Source of the DNA: Fibrobacter sp. UWR3
Lineage (GTDB): Bacteria; Fibrobacterota; Fibrobacteria; Fibrobacterales; Fibrobacteraceae
Direction of reading: 5' to 3'
DNA: 64,000 nt
NCBI RefSeq assembly: GCF_900143055.1
Contig: NZ_FRCW01000008.1
Coordinates: 124,001-188,000, forward strand
In this document: positions 3,085 to 62,053 of the stretch, piece after piece
Layout of the letters: every line of letters starts with the position of its first letter
Numbering within the stretch: position 1 is the stretch's first letter
Position numbers and translations under genes: made by a program
The notes under the pieces: model-generated
Seen by the model: only the letters and a program-made list of their open reading frames with translations
The model's database searches: none
Told to the model about the DNA's origin: nothing

Positions 3085-3183
3085 CCCGCAATAAACATCC
3101 CGCACCCCGCAATAAACATCTCGCAACCCGCAACACTAATAACCAATAACTAATGACTAATGACTAATGACTAATGACCAACT
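3085..3183. repeat. Heptanucleotide-phased tandem array (14 units)
   Basis: Fourteen consecutive 7-mers stay in strict phase from 3085 to 3182. The tsaE side reads CCCGCAA TAAACAT CCCGCAC CCCGCAA and so on. The nspC side reads AACTAAT followed by GACTAAT three times and GACCAAC. The array ends exactly in the nspC stop codon (3182-3184) and fills the tsaE-nspC gap. Confidence 0.85.
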
Positions 3184-4309
3184 ACAGCTTGTCTTTAAAC
3201 TGTTCGTACGTGAACTTGTGCAGCAGGTGGAACTTGCCATCCATATCGAACTTGCCGATGCTCGGGTGCCTTACCCCGTTGAAGAACGTAGTCTTCACCA
3301 TGGTGTAGTGGATCATGTCTTCGAAGATGAGTTTGTCGCCCACCTGGAGCGGCTTGTCGAAGGAGAAATCCCCGAGCTGGTCGCCCGCAAGGCACGAACA
3401 TCCGGTTAACTTGTATGTAAACGCCTTCTCGCCGGGCATCCCGGAGCCCGTAACGGCGGGCCTGTAGGGCATCTCGAGGCAGTCCGGCATGTGCGCGCTG
3501 ATGGACACGTTCAGGATGGCGATGTCGACTTCGTTGTGCACGATATCCTCGACCGTCGTCACCAGTTCGCCGGTCTGCCAGCCGACCGCTTCCCCCGGTT
3601 CCATGATAACCTCGACTCCCGGATGGCGTTCCATGAACCCCTTGAGGATGCGCACGAGTTCGTCCCTGTGGTAATCCTTGCGGGTAATGTGGTGGCCGCC
3701 GCCGAAGTTCACCCACTTCATGCGGTCGATGTACTTGCCGAAGTGCTTCTCGAAAGCAGCGAGCACGCCTTCGAGCGCGTCGGCGTCCTGCTCGCACAGG
3801 GCATGGAAGTGCAGCCCCTCGATCCCGTCCAGCAGTTCGGGCTTGAATTCGGCTTCGGTTACCCCGAGCCTCGAGTGCTTGCCGCACGGGTTGTAGATAT
3901 CGGTCTCGACTGTGGAAAATTCCGGGTTTACGCGTATGCCCGCGCTGACGCCCGCCCTGAGGGTCTTTTCCTTGAACCGCGCCCACTGGCTAAAACTGTT
4001 GAAGCTGATGTGGTCGGCAAGCGAGAGAATCTCGTCGATTTCGTCGTCGGAATACACCGGCGCAAACACGTGCACCTGCTTGTTCATTTCCTCGCGGGCG
4101 AGGCGCGCCTCGTTCAGGCTCGAAGCCGTGGCTCCGGCAAGGTACTTCCCGATGAGGGGGAATGACCGCCAGAAACTGTACCCCTTGAGGGCGCAGATGA
4201 TGTGGACTCCGGTCTTTTTCTGGATATCGTCCAGAATTTCCATGTTTTTTACGAGTCTTTTTTCGTCCAGGACGAAGCAGGGGCTGGGTACTTGGGTGTA
4301 ATCGAGCAT
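3182..4309 (-). CDS. nspC: Carboxynorspermidine decarboxylase
   Basis: A 375-residue fold-III PLP decarboxylase that turns carboxynorspermidine or carboxyspermidine into norspermidine or spermidine, the last step of the alternative polyamine route. The PLP lysine is Lys42 in CALKG. FNSFSQW, HFHALCEQ, the phosphate loop NFGGGHH and EPGEAVGWQTG match NspC. Its usual partner, carboxynorspermidine dehydrogenase, is not adjacent. The gene appears to be led by its own promoter, with TATATTTG ending 4 nt before ATG 4309, so the mRNA may be leaderless. It is followed by tsaE and mntP across a 7-nt repeat array. Confidence 0.93.
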   Translation of the reverse strand: MLDYTQVPSPCFVLDEKRLVKNMEILDDIQKKTGVHIICALKGYSFWRSFPLIGKYLAGATASSLNEARLAREEMNKQVHVFAPVYSDDEIDEILSLADHISFNSFSQWARFKEKTLRAGVSAGIRVNPEFSTVETDIYNPCGKHSRLGVTEAEFKPELLDGIEGLHFHALCEQDADALEGVLAAFEKHFGKYIDRMKWVNFGGGHHITRKDYHRDELVRILKGFMERHPGVEVIMEPGEAVGWQTGELVTTVEDIVHNEVDIAILNVSISAHMPDCLEMPYRPAVTGSGMPGEKAFTYKLTGCSCLAGDQLGDFSFDKPLQVGDKLIFEDMIHYTMVKTTFFNGVRHPSIGKFDMDGKFHLLHKFTYEQFKDKL

Positions 4310-8221: not shown

Positions 8222-8237
8222 GGGTAATGGATCAGGT

Positions 8238-8323
8238 CACTAGTCATTGGTCAATGGTCATTGGCTTTTTCATAATCGCGGCTACGCCAACTAATAACTA
8301 ATGACCAATGACTAACAACTAAT
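8238..8323. repeat. Two opposed heptanucleotide arrays forming an inverted repeat
   Basis: Units of CATTGGT type run at 8238-8265, and AACTAAT/GACCAAT units run at 8289-8323 up to the proC stop. The arrays are inverted to each other: 13 bases at 8241-8253 pair perfectly with 8302-8314. The arrays sit between proC and the sigma-54 regulator. Confidence 0.8.
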
Positions 8324-9129: not shown

Positions 9130-9146
9130 ATCAATAATCCTTTAAA

Positions 9147-9188
9147 AATTATCAATCATCAATTATCAATTATCAATTAATTATCATC
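9147..9188. repeat. Heptanucleotide array AATTATC
   Basis: Six in-phase 7-mers: AATTATC, AATCATC, AATTATC twice, AATTAAT and TATCATC. It lies between rho and proC and runs into the rho stop codon at 9184. Confidence 0.75.
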
Positions 9189-20046: not shown

Positions 20047-20081
20047 AACTATTGACTAATGACTATTGACCAATGACTATG
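20047..20081. repeat. Heptanucleotide array containing the ispE start codon
   Basis: Five in-phase units (AACTATT, GACTAAT, GACTATT, GACCAAT, GACTATG) begin one base after the ftsK stop and end with the ATG of ispE (20079-20081). Confidence 0.85.
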
Positions 20082-36116: not shown

Positions 36117-36146
36117 TCTGTGACACGGTTCCTAATCCGTTTTCTC

Positions 36147-36180
36147 ATCCCCGCCATTATGCGGGGATCTTTGTTTTTTA
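36147..36180 (+). terminator. Terminator after the ankyrin lipoprotein gene
   Basis: ATCCCCGC (36147-36154), CATTAT loop, GCGGGGAT (36161-36168), then CTTTGTTTTTTA. Confidence 0.85.
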
Positions 36181-36194
36181 GGGGCACATTTTTG

Positions 36195-36202
36195 TATTTT
36201 TC
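36195..36202 (+). promoter_or_regulatory. TATTTTTC box, 4 nt before the Ton operon
   Basis: TA-N2-TTTC followed by GCTT and ATG 36207. It is likely the promoter of the six-gene Ton operon. Confidence 0.35.
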
Positions 36203-36206
36203 GCTT

Positions 36207-36998
36207 ATGAATTTTAGATTCTCGAAACTACTCGTATGTATCGGGCTTGTCGCCGTAATGGCTGGCGCCCAAGAAACGGTGGAAAGCGTACGCCGCCAGA
36301 TAAAGGCGGTCGAGGCAGAAACCGCCCGCGAAAAGAACATGCACGACGCCGAAAAGAAGCGCCATGCGGAATTTGTCGAAGTCGGGCGCAAGAAGGTGCA
36401 GGCGCTCTCGAGCCAGAACAAGACGCTCAAGGCCGAAATCGATTCCCTGAAGGCGGAACTCGGGCACATTGCCGAGGTACGCCAGAAGACGATGGGTACC
36501 ATCCGCTGGTACGAAAGCCGCAAGGCGAAGTACAACGAATCCTTCGCGAAGGTTATCGATTCCCTGGTACCCGTTTTCGAGTCGGACTTCCCCTACAGGA
36601 ACGAGGAAACGGTAAAGAGTGTCAGGGAAATTGCCGAACAGCTCCACAAGGGTGTTATCGAGGCGGACGACGCATTGAACCGCACGCTTGAGGTGTTTTA
36701 CGACCGCATCCGCCTGGGCTACACGACCGAGGTCTACAAGGGCTTTTTGCAGGTGGATGCCCGCAGCGTACCGGGAACGTACCTGCGTTACGGTGCCGTT
36801 GCCTCCGTATTCGTGAGCAACGACGGCAACGACGTGCTTTGGCTTTCGAGGACTCCCGATGGCGGTTACGCCTGGAAGAACGTGTCCGACGACCTCGCGA
36901 TGCGTACCGTACTGAAGGACGTGATGAAGGTCGCCGAAGGGAAGACCGCTCCGAGGCTCGTGACCATACCAGTCGCCTTCCCGAAGGAGGGTGAATGA
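36207..36998 (+). CDS. DUF3450-family periplasmic coiled-coil protein, first gene of Ton operon
   Basis: A 263-residue exported protein: signal peptide 1-21 ending VMAGA, coiled coil at about 25-105 (heptads in QIKAVEAETAREK and QNKTLKAEIDSLKAEL), then an alpha/beta domain with IRWYESRKAKYNESF and VDARSVPGTYLRYGAVASVFVS. DUF3450 genes regularly open TonB-ExbB-ExbD operons of the TtpC type in proteobacteria and FCB bacteria, and this gene order agrees. A longer frame upstream includes the preceding terminator and is rejected. The stop overlaps the next start (ATGATG). Confidence 0.88.
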   Translation: MNFRFSKLLVCIGLVAVMAGAQETVESVRRQIKAVEAETAREKNMHDAEKKRHAEFVEVGRKKVQALSSQNKTLKAEIDSLKAELGHIAEVRQKTMGTIRWYESRKAKYNESFAKVIDSLVPVFESDFPYRNEETVKSVREIAEQLHKGVIEADDALNRTLEVFYDRIRLGYTTEVYKGFLQVDARSVPGTYLRYGAVASVFVSNDGNDVLWLSRTPDGGYAWKNVSDDLAMRTVLKDVMKVAEGKTAPRLVTIPVAFPKEGE

Positions 36999-38572
36999 TG
37001 AAATTCGGAATTCGGAATTCGGAATTAGGAATTGGCCTCAATCGTCATCCTGAGCGAAGCGCGAAGCGCGGAGTCGAAGGATCCAGTGCACGTTTCTTCA
37101 TACCTCTTGTTGTAGCAGCATTCGCAATTCTCGCTCCTGCAGCCAATGCCCAGCAGCCTTCCGACATCGACGCGGTGAAAAAGCGCGCAGAACTCAACAG
37201 CGCGAAGGCCGACCTGGAAGAAGCCCGCAAAAAGCGCGACATGGCAGTTGCCGCCCGCTGGAAGGACCGCGAGACGGCAAACCAGGAACGCGAGATGTTC
37301 AACGACAAGTACCAGGAAAGCAAGGAGAAGGTCGATGCCCTGATGTCGGAACGTGCCCGCCTGTTCGAGGACGTGCGCGTGGCCCGCGAGGACTTGGCCC
37401 AGGTGAAGCTTCAGGCCGAAAAGGCTCGTGCCGAATTCCTGTCCTTGGCTGCCGGTCCGGAACGCCTTGAGACGCTCGCGAAGTTCCAGGAACAGGGCGT
37501 GCCTTTCAAGATGGCGGAACGCGTGGAAGTGCAGAACAAGGTGAAGAAAGAGATGGGCCTCTACAAGGACGACCCGCTCCGCATTGCGAAGGGCGTGCTC
37601 GACGCGGCCCGCGCCGAGATGGCCTTTACCCGCGAGACAAGCGTTGAGAAGGCAGAACTCGTGTTTGGCTCTGCCGTCGCGCAGGGCGACCGCATGCGCC
37701 TCGGCGGGCTGTATGCCGTGCAGATGGCGAACGTCGCCGACATTCACGGCCTGCACGCGGCGGCAATGATGCTCCCCGTTGCGGGCGAAAAGAAGCGCGC
37801 CTACAGTTGGCAAGAAAACCTCGCTCCCGAAGCGAAGAAGAATATCGCGACCGTGTTTGCGAACGTGAACGATTCCGCGTTCGTGATGGTGCCGGTCGAC
37901 GTGCTCCTGAGTACGGAACTTTCGTCTGAACTCGCGAACCACCAGGAAACCACCTGGAAGGACAAGCTCAGGCAGTTCTTCAAGGACGGCGGCATTATCA
38001 TGTACCCGATTGTTGCGCTGTTTGCCATCGGCCTGCTCATCGCCCTCTGGCGCTTTGTATGGCTCGTGGTGAGGGGCTTCGGCGGTATCGCGAACAGGCG
38101 CGTGCTGAAGGCACTCAAGGCGGGCGACATCGATACGGCACGTTCGCTTGCGGCAAAGACGCACGGCGAAGTGGGGAAGGTGCTGCGTACCGTGCTTTCC
38201 AAGAACTACGCCGGCCGCGAAGGTGCCGAGAAGGCGCTCGAGGAACTCTTCTCCGCCGATGTCCCGAAACTGGAATCCGGACTCACTTGGATTTCCGTGA
38301 TTGCGGCGACCGCCCCGCTGCTCGGGCTCCTGGGTACCGTGATGGGCATGATTGAACTCTTCGACGTGATTACGATGCACGGTACATCCGACCCGAAGCT
38401 TTTGGCGGGGGGCATTTCCATCGCCCTCGTGACCACGGAAGCGGGCCTGATTGTGGCGATTCCCTTGCAACTGATTCACACCTTCCTCGTGAACCGCGCC
38501 GACGCCGTTCGCAGCCGTATGGAAAGTGCCGGGCTCGCCGTGCTGAATGCGCTCTGGATCAAGGAAAAGTAA
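36998..38572 (+). CDS. TtpC-like ExbB/TolQ-family protein with periplasmic coiled coil
   Basis: A 524-residue inner-membrane protein that helps pass proton-motive force to TonB. A hydrophobic signal segment lies at about 34-50 (ending PAANAQ). A periplasmic coiled coil spans about 55-190, a first main membrane helix is near 335-355 (GIIMYPIVALFAIGLLIAL), and the MotA/TolQ/ExbB domain follows to the end (TAPLLGLLGTVMGMIELFD, LVTTEAGLIVAIPLQL). Residues 3-33 are translated 7-nt repeats and a GTCAT palindrome element (RHPERSAKRGVEGS), so the signal segment sits unusually far in. ATG 36998 has AAGGAGG at seven bases. Confidence 0.9.
   Translation: MKFGIRNSELGIGLNRHPERSAKRGVEGSSARFFIPLVVAAFAILAPAANAQQPSDIDAVKKRAELNSAKADLEEARKKRDMAVAARWKDRETANQEREMFNDKYQESKEKVDALMSERARLFEDVRVAREDLAQVKLQAEKARAEFLSLAAGPERLETLAKFQEQGVPFKMAERVEVQNKVKKEMGLYKDDPLRIAKGVLDAARAEMAFTRETSVEKAELVFGSAVAQGDRMRLGGLYAVQMANVADIHGLHAAAMMLPVAGEKKRAYSWQENLAPEAKKNIATVFANVNDSAFVMVPVDVLLSTELSSELANHQETTWKDKLRQFFKDGGIIMYPIVALFAIGLLIALWRFVWLVVRGFGGIANRRVLKALKAGDIDTARSLAAKTHGEVGKVLRTVLSKNYAGREGAEKALEELFSADVPKLESGLTWISVIAATAPLLGLLGTVMGMIELFDVITMHGTSDPKLLAGGISIALVTTEAGLIVAIPLQLIHTFLVNRADAVRSRMESAGLAVLNALWIKEK
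37002..37084. repeat. Heptanucleotide array (AATTCGG) plus GTCAT...GGATC element within a coding N-terminus
   Basis: Five in-phase 7-mers (AATTCGG three times, AATTAGG, AATTGGC) at 37002-37036, then a GTCAT...GGATCC palindromic element at 37044-37084. Both are read in frame as residues about 3-30 of the TtpC-like protein. Confidence 0.85.
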
Positions 38573-38584
38573 GCGGGAATCCCT

Positions 38585-39262
38585 GTGGAAACCGTAAGCG
38601 AAATATCTGTAATCGAAGCCGCCATGGCCGTGCTCTTCCGCGGAGGATGGGTGCTTGCGCCCATATTCGTTATCGGGTGGTTCGGCTGGTTCCTGATGCT
38701 CGAACGCTACGGCTATTACTTCATGCTCAAGGGCGGCAGCGTGAACGGCGTGTTCGGCGGGTTCTGGAACAACCTGAAAAAGAAGGGCGAGGATGTCGCG
38801 TTCGCGAAGCTTGCCCGCAGGCCCTACGGCTACTTTTACGCGCTTGCATGCGACGTGCGCGACCACCGTGCAGAAGGCCCCGTTGCCGTGCGTAACGCGA
38901 TGGAAGAGACGCGCCACCGCATATCCGTGAACCTCTCGCGCTCGCTCAAGACGATTTCTACATGCGCGGCACTGGCCCCGATGCTCGGCCTGCTCGGTAC
39001 GGTTTCGGGCATGGCGCATACATTCGATACCATCAAGCTTTTCGGGTTCGGAAACCCGACACTCCTGGCCGACGGCATCTCCGAGGCCATGCTTACCACG
39101 CAGGCGGGCCTGCTCGTGGCGTTCCCACTGATGCTTGCCTACAACTTCCTCTCGGGTTGCGTTGAGAAGGTCGAAAAGCAGGCGTGGAGCGAAGCGCTCA
39201 AGTACGAATCCTTTGTGTTTGAAAATCCCGCTTCAAATGAAATTGCAGGGGAGGAAAAATGA
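38585..39262 (+). CDS. exbB: ExbB/TolQ-family proton channel protein
   Basis: A 225-residue protein with the three-helix ExbB layout: helix 1 near residues 18-40 (GWVLAPIFVIGWFGWFLML), then SLKTISTCAALAPMLGLLGTVSGMAHTFDTI and GISEAMLTTQAGLLVAFPLMLAYNFL. It forms the pentameric channel with the ExbD dimer. GTG start at 38585, 12 nt after the TtpC-like gene. The last codons overlap exbD by 4 nt (ATGA). Confidence 0.92.
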   Translation: METVSEISVIEAAMAVLFRGGWVLAPIFVIGWFGWFLMLERYGYYFMLKGGSVNGVFGGFWNNLKKKGEDVAFAKLARRPYGYFYALACDVRDHRAEGPVAVRNAMEETRHRISVNLSRSLKTISTCAALAPMLGLLGTVSGMAHTFDTIKLFGFGNPTLLADGISEAMLTTQAGLLVAFPLMLAYNFLSGCVEKVEKQAWSEALKYESFVFENPASNEIAGEEK

Positions 39263-39663
39263 GTTTCATACGTAAACGTTCTAGCGATTCCGGCAAGATA
39301 GACATTTCCCCGATGCTCGACATCGTGTTCATCTTGCTCATCTTCTTCGTGGTGACGTCGACCTTCACGCGCGAAACCGGCGTGGACGTGACGAAGCCGA
39401 AGGCAAGCTCCGCGAAGGAACTCGCGAAGGAAAGCATATTGATTGGCGTGACGCGCCAGGGGACAATCCACATCAACGAGACACAGGTGAACCTCTCTAC
39501 CCTGAATACAGTATTGCGCCAGATGATGGCCGAAGCGCCCGACCGCCCCGTGATTATCGTGAGCGACCGCGACGCCCCCAACGGCGTGGTGGTGGACATT
39601 CTTGATGAATGCAATTTGGCTAAAGTCCGCAAGGTTTCCATTTCCGCGAACAAAGAGGAATAG
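39259..39663 (+). CDS. exbD: ExbD/TolR biopolymer transport protein
   Basis: A 134-residue protein with one N-terminal membrane helix (MLDIVFILLIFFVVTSTF) carrying the proton-translocating Asp of the D-I-x-P-M-L-D motif, followed by a periplasmic domain (VDVTKPKAS, ITLIGV-like strands, PVIIVSDRDAPNGVVVDILDECNL). It overlaps exbB by ATGA, and its TAG stop shares its last base with the GTG of the TonB gene. Confidence 0.93.
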   Translation: MSFIRKRSSDSGKIDISPMLDIVFILLIFFVVTSTFTRETGVDVTKPKASSAKELAKESILIGVTRQGTIHINETQVNLSTLNTVLRQMMAEAPDRPVIIVSDRDAPNGVVVDILDECNLAKVRKVSISANKEE

Positions 39664-40304
39664 TGCTCGACTTTCTCGCTAAATATTTCCGGTTCCCGGT
39701 GGCATTCGTGCTCTCCTTTGCGGTGAGCGCGGTGTTCTTCCTTGCCGTGCCGGTGCTGAACGCGCTGTTCTTCGACAGGGGCGTAAAGACGGAGAAGGAA
39801 CTCGACACCGTGACGGAAGTCGAGGTGCTCGTGAGCGAGAAAAAGCCCGAGGTGAAGCAGAAGGTTATACGCACTATCGTGAACCCGAACCCGTTCAAGA
39901 TTTCCTCGAACATGGGTGTAAGCCGCAGCCAGAATTTCCAGATGGACCTTTCGCTTGCGCGCGGTGCAGCAGGCGACGGAGTCGCCGTGGGTACGGGCTC
40001 GATGGAAAACGTCGTGTACGAAGCGGGCGAGGTGGACGAACAGGCCCAGGTTCTTAAGGAAGTTCAGCCGAAGTTCCCCGAACGCGCAAAAAAACTCGGC
40101 ATTTCGGGCTACGTGAAGGTAATGGTTGTCATCGACGTGTATGGCGACGTGGCGCAGGCGAACGTGATGAGCCTCGACCCGCCGGGTTACGGCTTCGAGA
40201 ACGAGGCCCTGAAGGCAGTTCGCCAGTGGAAGTTCAGCCCCGCACAGCTAGGCGGATATCCCGTGGCACAGAAGGCCACAAAGGAGTTCCGCTTTGTCAA
40301 ATAG
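39663..40304 (+). CDS. tonB: TonB-family energy transducer
   Basis: A 213-residue protein with an N-terminal membrane helix at about 10-35. The periplasmic spacer is short, not the long Pro-rich rod of classical TonB. The TonB C-terminal domain spans about 130-213: VQPKFPERAKKLGISGYVKVMVVIDVYGDV, GFENEALKAVRQWKFSPAQ and an F-R-F-V end. It would couple the ExbB/ExbD motor to outer-membrane receptors. No receptor gene is in the window. The GTG start overlaps the exbD stop. Confidence 0.92.
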   Translation: MLDFLAKYFRFPVAFVLSFAVSAVFFLAVPVLNALFFDRGVKTEKELDTVTEVEVLVSEKKPEVKQKVIRTIVNPNPFKISSNMGVSRSQNFQMDLSLARGAAGDGVAVGTGSMENVVYEAGEVDEQAQVLKEVQPKFPERAKKLGISGYVKVMVVIDVYGDVAQANVMSLDPPGYGFENEALKAVRQWKFSPAQLGGYPVAQKATKEFRFVK

Positions 40305-41412
40305 TTTTAATTACAAATTGCTGAGCCTTATAACTCGGGTGCGAACTGCACGCGGGCGGGGCCCCAGCTCAGAGTTGCGAAGGCCGCACGGGCCCCTCCC
40401 TGCACCCTCCCCATCCTTGGCCGACGCGCAGACGGGTAAGAGATGTTTATCTCTGGTTTTATTCTTCTTTATTTTTGTTGCTTATAGTTTCGCGGCGGAG
40501 GATTATTTCTTCAAGGCGAACGAGCTTTACGACCAAGGGAAGTACAAGGAAGCGGTGCCGCTCTACCGCGCGGCGATTGACGAGGGCCGTTACGAGCCTT
40601 TCGCATGGTTCAACTTGGGCAACGCGCTGGTGCAACTCGACCGCAAGCAGGTCGCGATGGTCGCCTACAAGCGCACCGTAGAACTCCTGCCGAATTTCGA
40701 GAAGGCCTGGATGTTGCTCGGTGACCTCTACTACCTCGCAGATTCTCCAGGCGATGCGATTGCGGCATACCGGCGCGCCATAGAACTCGGGGTGGAATCG
40801 GACCACGTGCACTTTGCGCTTGCCGAATGTTACCTGAAGGGCCGCGACTGGACGCTTGCGCAGAAGAACTTCGAGCGGGCGCTGCAGCTGAACCCCGACC
40901 GCATGGATGCCTGGTACGGGCTTGCCGAAGTCTACGAGAAGCTGGGCGACTACGAGTATGCCATCAAGACGCTCCAGAATGCGCTCCAGATGACGGCTAC
41001 CGCGGGTGCCGACGTGCATTTCACGATGGCGTATTATTACCGCAGCATGGATTCCACGCGCCAGTCCCTGAACGAGATGGAGAACGGCCTGCTGATGGAC
41101 CCCGAGAACGTTTCGGCCCGCCGCTACCTCGCGCAGATGTACGTGCAGAACAATTCCCCGTGGATGGCAATCTTCACGCTGGAAGAAGGCCTGCGGCACA
41201 ACAAGGGCAAGGGCGACCTCAATTTGGATTTGGGGCAGATTTACTTTAACCAGAAGCGCTACGACGAAGCGTTCGAATGCTACATGAAGGCCTGGCTTGC
41301 GGGCAGTTCACAGGGCCGCATCGGTGCCGAGAACGTGGGCCACGTGTTCTCGAACGCGGGCGATACCGAGAAGGCCGAAAGCCTGTACAAGCGGATTCGG
41401 GAAAAGAAGTAG
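40294..41412 (+). CDS. TPR-repeat periplasmic protein, last gene of Ton operon
   Basis: A 372-residue exported TPR protein. About seven to eight tetratricopeptide repeats lie from residue 68 on (AEDYFFKANELYDQGKYKEAVPLYRAAI, LQLNPDRMDAWYGLAEVYEKLGDYEYAIKTL). A TPR gene often closes TtpC-type Ton operons and its product may organise the complex. The TTG start has AAGGAG at seven bases and overlaps tonB. Residues about 14-50 are encoded by a GC-rich stretch with hairpins that seems to have been inserted into the signal peptide. The hydrophobic core LSLVLFFFIFVAYSFA comes after it. Confidence 0.85.
   Translation: MSNSFNYKLLSLITRVRTARGRGPSSELRRPHGPLPAPSPSLADAQTGKRCLSLVLFFFIFVAYSFAAEDYFFKANELYDQGKYKEAVPLYRAAIDEGRYEPFAWFNLGNALVQLDRKQVAMVAYKRTVELLPNFEKAWMLLGDLYYLADSPGDAIAAYRRAIELGVESDHVHFALAECYLKGRDWTLAQKNFERALQLNPDRMDAWYGLAEVYEKLGDYEYAIKTLQNALQMTATAGADVHFTMAYYYRSMDSTRQSLNEMENGLLMDPENVSARRYLAQMYVQNNSPWMAIFTLEEGLRHNKGKGDLNLDLGQIYFNQKRYDEAFECYMKAWLAGSSQGRIGAENVGHVFSNAGDTEKAESLYKRIREKK
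40335..40440. repeat. GC-rich insertion within the TPR gene N-terminus
   Basis: About 105 bp far richer in G+C than the flanking signal-peptide codons, with a GTGC/GCAC hairpin at 40339-40351, GGGGCCCC at 40358-40365 and GGGCCCCTCCC at 40390-40400, the latter shared with 20969-20979. Its length keeps the frame open. The exact edges are uncertain. Confidence 0.5.
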
Positions 41413-45335: not shown

Positions 45336-45393
45336 GCCCCCTTTCGGGGGCCATTTCTGTACGCAAAGAAGATTCCCGGCCGTAGCCGGGAAT
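45336..45393. terminator. Two hairpins downstream of leuB
   Basis: GCCCCC/GGGGGC (45336-45351), preceded by GAAAA on the plus strand, gives a T-run for leuB on the minus strand. ATTCCCGGC/GCCGGGAAT (45372-45393) is a perfect 9-bp hairpin nearer the leuB stop. Confidence 0.65.
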
Positions 45394-45404
45394 GACAATG
45401 CTGG

Positions 45405-60722: not shown

Positions 60723-61211
60723 TTATTTTGATTTCTGATAAAGTATTGCGTTTTCACCGTCGGCATAGTACTTCTTGCGCTCTGCGTATGGCTCGAAACC
60801 ATGCTTCTCGTAGAAGCGGCGGGCTTTTGTATTGCCTTCGCGGACCTCGAGGAACATTTTATCGCCTTTTGCGAAATCGAGATGCGCAAGGCCCGCGTTC
60901 AATAGCGCCGTGCCGATTCCTGCGCGCTGGTGCGACGCGTTTGCGGCGATACTCAGAAGTTCGCTGTCCGGGCCCATCAGATGGAAGACGGCATAACCCA
61001 ATATATCCTTGCTGTCATTCTGGAGGGGCGAAGCCCCGATAGAATCACGGGGATCTTCGTTAAACTGCGCTTCCTCGTAAACGACGCACAGGGCATAGTT
61101 CGCCGTGATTTCTGCAATAAACTGCCGCTCGTTCCAGTCCTGGAAGGCAAGCGCCTTCTGGATTTGAAGGACCTGCGGCAAGTCATCTATTTTCATTTCG
61201 CGAACGGGCAT
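60723..61211 (-). CDS. rimI: Ribosomal protein S18-alanine N-acetyltransferase RimI
   Basis: A 162-residue GNAT acetyltransferase. Family marks are WNERQFIAEITANYALCVVYEE, GYAVFHLMG, LLSIAANASHQRAGIGTALL (acetyl-CoA loop Q-R-A-G-I-G) and FLEVREGNTKARRFYEKHGF. It follows tsaB by 26 nt, the standard bacterial gene pair, which supports RimI over other GNATs. ATG 61211 was chosen because GGAAGG stands seven bases before it. The longer frame overlaps tsaB. Confidence 0.9.
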   Translation of the reverse strand: MPVREMKIDDLPQVLQIQKALAFQDWNERQFIAEITANYALCVVYEEAQFNEDPRDSIGASPLQNDSKDILGYAVFHLMGPDSELLSIAANASHQRAGIGTALLNAGLAHLDFAKGDKMFLEVREGNTKARRFYEKHGFEPYAERKKYYADGENAILYQKSK

Positions 61212-61237: not shown

Positions 61238-61975
61238 CTATGATTTCAACTTTTCGAAATAGGACGGCTGAATGTAGTTCGCTTCCTGAATGAGCGACGG
61301 CTTTACGGTACTGAACAGCGGGGCCCACATGTCGAGAGGCTTGCCCGTATCGGGCGAAACACTTGCGCCAATCTCTGCAAAGACGGCCTTGAGCGCTTCG
61401 TCTTCCTGTGCGGGGGCGTCCGCGACAATCGCCTTAACTTTCGCGTTCTTGATGCGTTCGATAACCTCGGGCGTCTCGATGAAGAATTCCTCGCCGTTCA
61501 GCCTCATGTACCAGAACCCGGTGCGAGCGCGGATAACGACCGCAGTCTCGGCGCATTCCTTGCCCGCGACAGTACCAGCAGGCTTATTGCCCGCGGCATC
61601 GGTACACGCAGGCTTATTGTCCGCGGCATCGTGCGCAAAACATGCGAGCGCCTGCAGGGTCGTGACCCCGTAGAGTTCGCGCTTCCCGCTGAAGCAAAGC
61701 CCCTGGCAGAATGCCACTCCGGTCCTGAGCCCGCTGAAAGAGCCGGGCCCGAGCGTCACCATCACGCGCTTCACGTCATCGAGAGTCGCGCCCACGCGCG
61801 TGAGCAGCGTGTCGAGCGATTCCCCGAGAATTTCCCCGCGGGCCTCCGTGTTCACGATTTCCTCGTAAACGCGAGCGCTTGCATCCGTAGTTCGCGCATT
61901 CATAGGCTGGCCGCTGGTCGCAACCGCCATCGAGATGCCCTTCCGGGAAGTATCTACGTATAAGTCAATAGTCAT
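61238..61975 (-). CDS. tsaB: tRNA threonylcarbamoyladenosine biosynthesis protein TsaB
   Basis: A 245-residue ASKHA-fold partner of TsaD in t6A modification. LYVDTSRKGISMAV, LLTRVGATLDDVKRVMVTLGPGSFSGLRTGV and AFCQGLCF are diagnostic. Two oddities: the start codon and the first four codons (MTID) are made from a 7-nt repeat array, and an inserted segment at about 120-145 (CAFAHDAADNKPA...AAGNKPAGT) is a 30-bp tandem duplication absent from typical TsaB. rimI follows. Confidence 0.93.
   Translation of the reverse strand: MTIDLYVDTSRKGISMAVATSGQPMNARTTDASARVYEEIVNTEARGEILGESLDTLLTRVGATLDDVKRVMVTLGPGSFSGLRTGVAFCQGLCFSGKRELYGVTTLQALACFAHDAADNKPACTDAAGNKPAGTVAGKECAETAVVIRARTGFWYMRLNGEEFFIETPEVIERIKNAKVKAIVADAPAQEDEALKAVFAEIGASVSPDTGKPLDMWAPLFSTVKPSLIQEANYIQPSYFEKLKS
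61584..61640. repeat. 30-bp tandem duplication inside tsaB
   Basis: The 25-nt block from GCAGGCTTATT to CGCGGCATCG appears twice with 30-nt period and one base change. It encodes DAADNKPA and DAAGNKPA on the minus strand. Confidence 0.75.
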
Positions 61976-61997
61976 TGGTCAATGGTCATTGGTTATT
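61963..61997. repeat. Heptanucleotide array containing the tsaB start codon
   Basis: AGTCAAT, AGTCATT, GGTCAAT, GGTCATT, GGTTATT in one phase. The tsaB ATG is the complement of CAT at 61973-61975, inside unit two. Confidence 0.85.
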
Positions 61998-62003
61998 AGA
62001 ATC

Positions 62004-62053
62004 GTCATCCTGAGGCCCTTCGACAAGCTCAGGGTAAACTCCGTCGAAGGATC
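62004..62053. repeat. GTCAT...GGATC palindromic element
   Basis: Starts GTCATCCTGAG, inner hairpin CCTGAG/CTCAGG (62009-62014 with 62028-62033), ends GAAGGATC directly before the ddl stop codon. Family members at 13427, 37044 and 45277. Confidence 0.75.

Follow-up and report, generated by a model that had tools for sequence, protein, structure and literature searches.

The TtpC-like ExbB gene at this Fibrobacter locus opens with repeat DNA, which raises the question of whether short dispersed repeats have become codons of a conserved operon protein and, if so, by what route. The window, i.e., the whole stretch of 64,000 nucleotides that was analyzed, belongs to Fibrobacter, all of its closest named orthologs being from that genus (91% for the closest of them, over its best segment). 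ttpC is the second of six genes (DUF3450 [ttpB-like], ttpC-like, exbB, exbD, tonB, and a TPR gene), and its product was classed as a TtpC-like ExbB by a MotA_ExbB domain behind a long N-terminal part, encoded within a ttpB-ttpC-exbB-exbD-tonB-ttpD operon. Residues 74 to 239 form a DUF3450-like stretch with a score below the family cut-off. The genes are of the same kind and in the same order as those of the Vibrio TonB2 operon, described as running ttpB-ttpC-exbB-exbD-tonB-ttpD with ttpB first and ttpD last (PMC6957404, in the part concerned with that operon); in contrast, the repeat leaders are a feature of Fibrobacter. The initial annotation had regarded ttpC as an essential-type gene, a description that is not supported, because a second ttpC-like gene is present in the genome (C7:149501-150802) and ttpC may therefore be dispensable.

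At the junction of the first two genes, the DUF3450 stop codon (TGA, 36996-36998) lies within the string ATGATGA and overlaps both ttpC ATG codons (36995 and 36998), with the Shine-Dalgarno sequence inside the DUF3450 coding end; a GGAGG-type motif stands at the equivalent spot in the ortholog junctions listed. Five GGAATTN units begin directly after the ttpC ATG (in order, GAAATTC, GGAATTC, GGAATTC, GGAATTA, and GGAATTG), and a short linker separates this array from a 40-nt palindromic element (GTCATCCTGAGCGAAGCGCGAAGCGCGGAGTCGAAGGATC). Array and element together make up codons 2 to 30, and the leader translation, MMKFGIRNSELGIGLNRHPERSAKRGVEGSSARFFIPLVVAAFAILAPAANAQQ, matches that of the initial annotation, whose claim of repeats absorbed in frame into the TtpC N terminus holds. 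By hydropathy, the hydrophobic core begins at residue 34-35, and cleavage is probable after ANA at residue 52, a site picked by eye. No ATG, GTG, or TTG was found between element and core in the window, and no Shine-Dalgarno-like sequence was seen by eye between repeat and core. Since no start codon stands between element and core, export of the protein would require translation of the repeat.

Table 1. Features of the ttpC region, in positions of the window
Feature	Position	Strand	Basis or remark
DUF3450 / TtpB-like gene	36120..36998	+	ORF; PF11932 85.2 bits (cut-off 32.6)
Shine-Dalgarno AAGGAGGG of ttpC	36984..36991	+	sequence; inside DUF3450 coding end
TtpC-like ExbB gene, 525 aa, repeat-encoded leader	36995..38572	+	ORF; PF01618 101.9 bits
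7-nt tandem array, five GGAATTN units, conceptual translation KFGIRNSELGIG	37000..37034	+	sequence, pattern scan
Dispersed palindromic (REP-like) element GTCATCCTGAGC...GAAGGATC, conceptual translation RHPERSAKRGVEGS	37044..37083	+	39 copies, genus-restricted, predicted hairpin
Signal-peptide hydrophobic core and probable AxA cleavage site	37097..37150	+	hydropathy; cleavage site by eye
exbB, exbD, tonB, same operon	38585..40304	+	PF01618, PF02472, PF03544
ttpD-like TPR gene	40294..41412	+	TTG start overlapping tonB stop; leader with another dispersed repeat before hydrophobic segment

When GGAATTNGGAATTNGG was searched with one mismatch, four matches were obtained in the window, all within the ttpC array (0.02 expected). 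The 17-mer head of the element had one exact match in the window, and two matches when up to three mismatches were allowed (0.19 expected), the second of them with three mismatches. Genomes were scanned with the pattern GTCATCCTGAGC-N(4-34)-GAAGGATC and, as control, with the reversed pattern; a looser pattern, GTCATTCN{6,30}GGATC, matched other GTCAT families and was dropped in favor of the exact element. The window genome contains 39 copies of the element pattern and none of the control, and the element is present in 36 of the 37 genus genomes, this one counted (G021 is the only genome in which no match was found), as compared to 0 of 23 from other genera. Copy numbers within the genus extend from 0 to 4 in G021, G008, and G018 up to more than 50 in G004, G006, and G035. 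Heptad arrays of the AATT type are less frequent than the element, occurring at three places in the whole window genome. Further heptad arrays in the window, with CACTAAT-, GTCATTG-, and ATTATCA-like units, lie at 3134-3186, 8236-8316, 9142-9186, 20048-20077, and 61963-61999, and other, related GTCAT-type palindromic elements at 61014-61055, 45371-45396, and 61985-62053.

Among the 30 of 39 element copies that were examined, 22 follow a gene on the same strand and 11 lie at −4 to 20 nt from a same-strand upstream stop, so that junction targeting of the element is a tendency only; six were called inside an ORF (L120, L124, L127, L132, L137, and L140, with L127 doubtful). A hairpin with an outer ATCCT/AGGAT stem is predicted for most of these copies, the inner stem varying between copies yet remaining paired in most; for several short ones, the predicted folding is weak (about −5 to −8 kcal/mol). 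The GTAG and CGTC tags were not found on the element, a C preceding GTCAT in only 6 of 30 copies (by eye) and no copy having a GTAG end. A profile search for the Y1 transposase domain PF01797 found none in the window genome and detected it in 7 of 25 genus genomes searched; with this domain absent from the own genome and scattered in the genus, RAYT/Y1 mobilization is not claimed. The initial annotation had spoken of mobile repeats; movement, no mobilizing enzyme having been found in the genome, is presumed.

The junction was compared across 53 loci, comprising the window and 52 named Fibrobacter loci. In 52 of these, the ttpC start codon ATG either overlaps the ttpB stop or directly adjoins it and leads in frame, without a stop, into the conserved core, which supports the proposed tolerance of the repeat codons. 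The sole exception, L099 (identical in sequence to L049, genome G015, 74% complete), is a broken gene in a MAG and was left out of the tree and the leader statistics. Leaders range from 81 to 213 nt with 31 distinct lengths. Repeats of several unrelated families, by classes and thresholds of the analysts' own choice, were scored in 39 of 52 leaders, and 13 contained none of the scored classes. Leader heptads are built on GGAATTC, GAAATGT, AGACGAA, CTCTCGT, and CCAGGCT, and the non-heptad repeats are the GTCATCCTGAGC element and five others. Across the 695 kb of the 53 loci, 60 arrays of period 7 were counted as compared to 1 to 6 for each of the periods 5, 6, 8, 9, 10, and 11, and 26 of the 59 heptad arrays that remain after discarding an N-run of L083 are located at the ttpC start, a recurrent hotspot of which the initial annotation was unaware. 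When the leaders were compared by BLAST with the remainder of the loci, in which the ttpC start had been masked, copies elsewhere were found for many of them, the leader of the window matching four loci.

The gene frame is open in all 39 repeat-bearing leaders, the +1 frame in none, and the +2 frame in eight. Hydrophobic cores begin at a median of residue 32 in leaders with repeats versus residue 8 in the 13 without; set against this 8, the core at residue 34-35 in the window shows that the earlier estimate of a core displaced from near residue 5 to near 34 was right in substance. Orthologs lacking the insert, with which a comparison had been proposed, exist and have short leaders, including that of the sister locus L056 (MMIRQFTLAFAV...). 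An extension of equal length without repeat DNA, named beforehand as the observation that would speak against absorption, was looked for and not found, the longest repeat-free leader placing the core at residue 20 (L063). In 12 of the 39 repeat-bearing leaders, the repeat encodes at least one residue at the beginning of the hydrophobic core itself (e.g., MSLVSRLSSLVLISLLCLAPLSFA from (CTCTCGT)n in L097). Families outside the genus have a diverged ttpC with only rough N termini and were left out of these counts.

Wherever a leader bears the palindrome, it does so in the sense direction (13 of 13). The palindrome is read in phase 1 in 11, giving (C/R)HPE... peptides (CHPERS...), and in phase 0 in two, giving VILS... 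(VILSEVEGS...); the phase giving TGA is never used. Because the element is read in two frames and never in the stop frame, it seems to be an open frame, and not a peptide, that is kept at the leader, a pattern of frame use that fits selection for openness without selection for a particular peptide. A conserved peptide function of the leader is unsupported, given these two frames and the 13 leaders without scored repeats.

Mapped on a quickly built ttpC-core tree (52 rows), the combination of repeat classes undergoes a minimum of 28 changes, a figure for state changes rather than insertions because recombination contributes; part of these changes may reflect horizontal exchange instead of new insertion. 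The sister L056, 89% identical in the ttpC core, has a plain leader without repeats, while L057, an independent assembly, carries the leader of the window, and in L086, which belongs to a distant clade, heptads and flanks are similar but the sequence is 45 nt shorter and lacks the element. Identity between the window and L057 is 91 to 96% within −300 to +400 of the core anchor, as compared to 66 to 92% outside, and 96 to 99% identity to L056 is reached only further downstream. This mosaic along ttpB-ttpC (around 36900-38500 of the window) suggests that Fibrobacter species have exchanged DNA near the leader by homologous recombination.

Repeats at comparable positions were observed in other genes. 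The leader of ttpD in the window holds a repeat, GRGPSSELRRPHGPLPAPSPSLADA (40294-40500), with matches elsewhere in the genome (97% over 76 nt, 89% over 88 nt). As an independent replicate of the ttpC pattern, 52 of 52 scorable loci (of 53; L073, in which no core was found, was left out) retain a TTG in frame at −11 relative to the tonB stop, the distance from tonB stop to ttpD core ranging from 49 to 349 nt, and heptad or GTCAT patterns were matched in 15 of the 52 ttpD leaders. Among the second ttpC paralogs of 20 genomes fetched (L158-L177), many, by impression rather than formal count, have heptad- or element-derived leaders, e.g., that of the own genome (L158) and CHPERNVVKSKDL in L159. 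The own tilS (tRNA-Ile lysidine synthase, named by the PP-loop motif SGGLDS alone; L039:645-1787, G000:C5:295573-296715) contains two elements in frame, DPSTPLRFAQDD and DPRLRGDDNK, and 14 of 19 Fibrobacter tilS ORFs (including L178-L195 and L207; 349 to 604 aa) have a recognized repeat, mostly in two loops. An in-frame element (VILSGAQAESKDP) also lies in a linker of a 664-aa signal-peptide-bearing protein (L137:1045-3036) that by eye looks like a TonB-dependent receptor. In the own genome, the ORFs L120 (464 aa) and L124 (319 aa) each hold an element in frame, one by eye resembling an LlaJI-type restriction protein and the other a radical SAM protein (CxxxCxxC).

The arrangement of the leaders is very probably explained by repeats that settle at junctions and permissive coding sites, with only in-frame, open insertions surviving at gene overlaps, within a tolerant n-region. 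Fibrobacter genomes hold several families of short dispersed repeats, both 7-nt tandem arrays and REP-like hairpins, that tend to gather mainly at gene junctions, often some 20 nt or less after a stop codon. With the ttpC ATG over the ttpB stop and the Shine-Dalgarno sequence inside ttpB, there is no neutral spacer, and for this reason a repeat landing at the ttpB/ttpC junction would fall inside ttpC. The anchored ATG would force the frame to be kept, insertions that close it being lost, and the n-region of the signal peptide may tolerate some 10 to 45 added residues. Given this tolerance and an open frame, the repeat would become a translated leader, presumably neutral, that should leave together with the cleaved signal peptide of the exported protein. 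Such leaders would turn over fast, by gain, loss, and recombination between congeners.

A function for the repeats, whether a hairpin or array in the first 30 codons that tunes translation or mRNA stability or a longer n-region that alters targeting, is unlikely. The element as a predicted hairpin, with an inner stem that varies but mostly stays paired, would suit such a role, and Beggiatoaceae heptads near starts have been proposed as translational regulatory sites (PMC4679880, where these arrays are treated). However, a quarter of the orthologs (13/52) do without a scored repeat, unrelated families swap at one place, the element occurs in two reading frames, and no shared sequence or structure is conserved.

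Still less probable is that the repeat forms an untranslated leader, with ttpC starting at a noncanonical codon such as ATA or ATT inside the signal core. Many REPs at the N termini of ORFs elsewhere are thought to be extragenic, translation starting later (PMC3733652, in its account of such cases), and eight of the 39 repeat-bearing leaders have an ATG, GTG, or TTG after the repeat as a possible later start. The other 31, the window included, have none in the stretch from repeat to core, and there would be no need for an untranslated leader to stay in frame with, and open toward, the junction ATG, as is the case in 52 of 53 loci. Downstream initiation, which the initial annotation had left as an option, was rejected for the window on both grounds. 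It is highly improbable that the heptad array acts as a phase-variation switch in which gain or loss of units would turn ttpC off: the array does lie between start codon and signal core, and each change of one unit shifts the frame, 7 not being a multiple of 3, but the arrays are short and imperfect, all 39 repeat-bearing leaders are in the on frame across species, and the only off-frame case is the broken gene L099. An assembly artefact or pseudogene is scarcely credible, for although repeats are prone to misassembly and many of the relatives are MAGs, the window genome, in 20 contigs, is 100% complete and has the 525-aa ORF intact, independent assemblies (e.g., L057) show the same leader, and the operon genes are recovered in 52 to 53 of 53 loci.

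Settlement of repeats in open frame at the overlapping junction, the preferred reading, has partial precedents. Rickettsia palindromic elements (RPEs) occur in protein-coding genes (Ogata et al. 2000, cited in PMC2229807), and an N-terminal position has been reported for RPE-1 proteins expressed in vivo (PMC3733652). As for RPEs, short dispersed palindromes confined to one genus stand in frame inside conserved proteins and are absent from orthologs, in ttpC and also in tilS. In contrast to the 105 to 146 bp given for RPEs, the Fibrobacter element measures about 40 bp and belongs to an unrelated phylum; its site is shared with 7-nt arrays and other families, and the start codon is anchored to the upstream stop. 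REPs of the GTAG/CGTC superfamilies are described as hairpins of 20 to 40 bp in tens of copies, mostly intergenic with some in ORFs, lying near 3′ ends, often just after stops, and between unidirectional genes (PMC3733652, main text, in which a text search found no mention of Fibrobacter). The Fibrobacter element resembles these in hairpin size, many dispersed copies, and mostly extragenic position near 3′ ends, but it lacks a general GTAG/CGTC tag and its own genome lacks a Y1/RAYT gene; since both markers fail, it is called REP-like and not a REP of those superfamilies.

TAACTGA heptanucleotide arrays of Beggiatoaceae likewise consist of few 7-nt tandem units near start codons (PMC4679880, as far as its description of them extends). 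The Fibrobacter units, by contrast, are of several sequences, stop-free, placed after the start codon, and predicted to be translated, whereas TAACTGA in forward orientation gives stops in all frames. In Yersinia, a palindrome/RU-2 repeat has been proposed as part of the predicted signal peptide of YPO1552 (PMC2229807, in its treatment of that gene); the contribution of a repeat to a predicted signal peptide is alike, but that case is a single putative new gene, and the present gene is conserved within an operon and occurs with many different repeat leaders. Translation of short palindromes within conserved proteins is thus known from RPEs and intragenic REPs (PMC2229807 and PMC3733652, in the sections drawn on here), and the present case differs in the genus, the mixture of heptads and palindromes, and the recurrence at one anchored start codon. 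No paper on repeats in Fibrobacter coding sequences was found in the open-access literature searched, a scope outside which most subscription papers fall.

Most known cases of repeats inserted in frame into conserved bacterial proteins come from Rickettsia, Wolbachia, and REP-rich genomes. At the ttpC start codon, compared in 52 congeners, the repeat state has changed at least 28 times with the frame strictly kept, which makes the locus a natural experiment both on the tolerance of n-regions and protein loops for foreign codons and on whether repeats feed new export signals. For annotation, Fibrobacter ORF starts with HPERSAKRGVEGS-like peptides can be real. Whichever frame is read, an open 7-nt array yields the same 7-residue period, and heptads would for that reason be suited as raw material for signal peptides. 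Tentatively, unrelated repeat families might flow into proteins throughout the genus, by way of overlapping junctions and permissive loops, and there supply Fibrobacter with raw material for new signal peptides.
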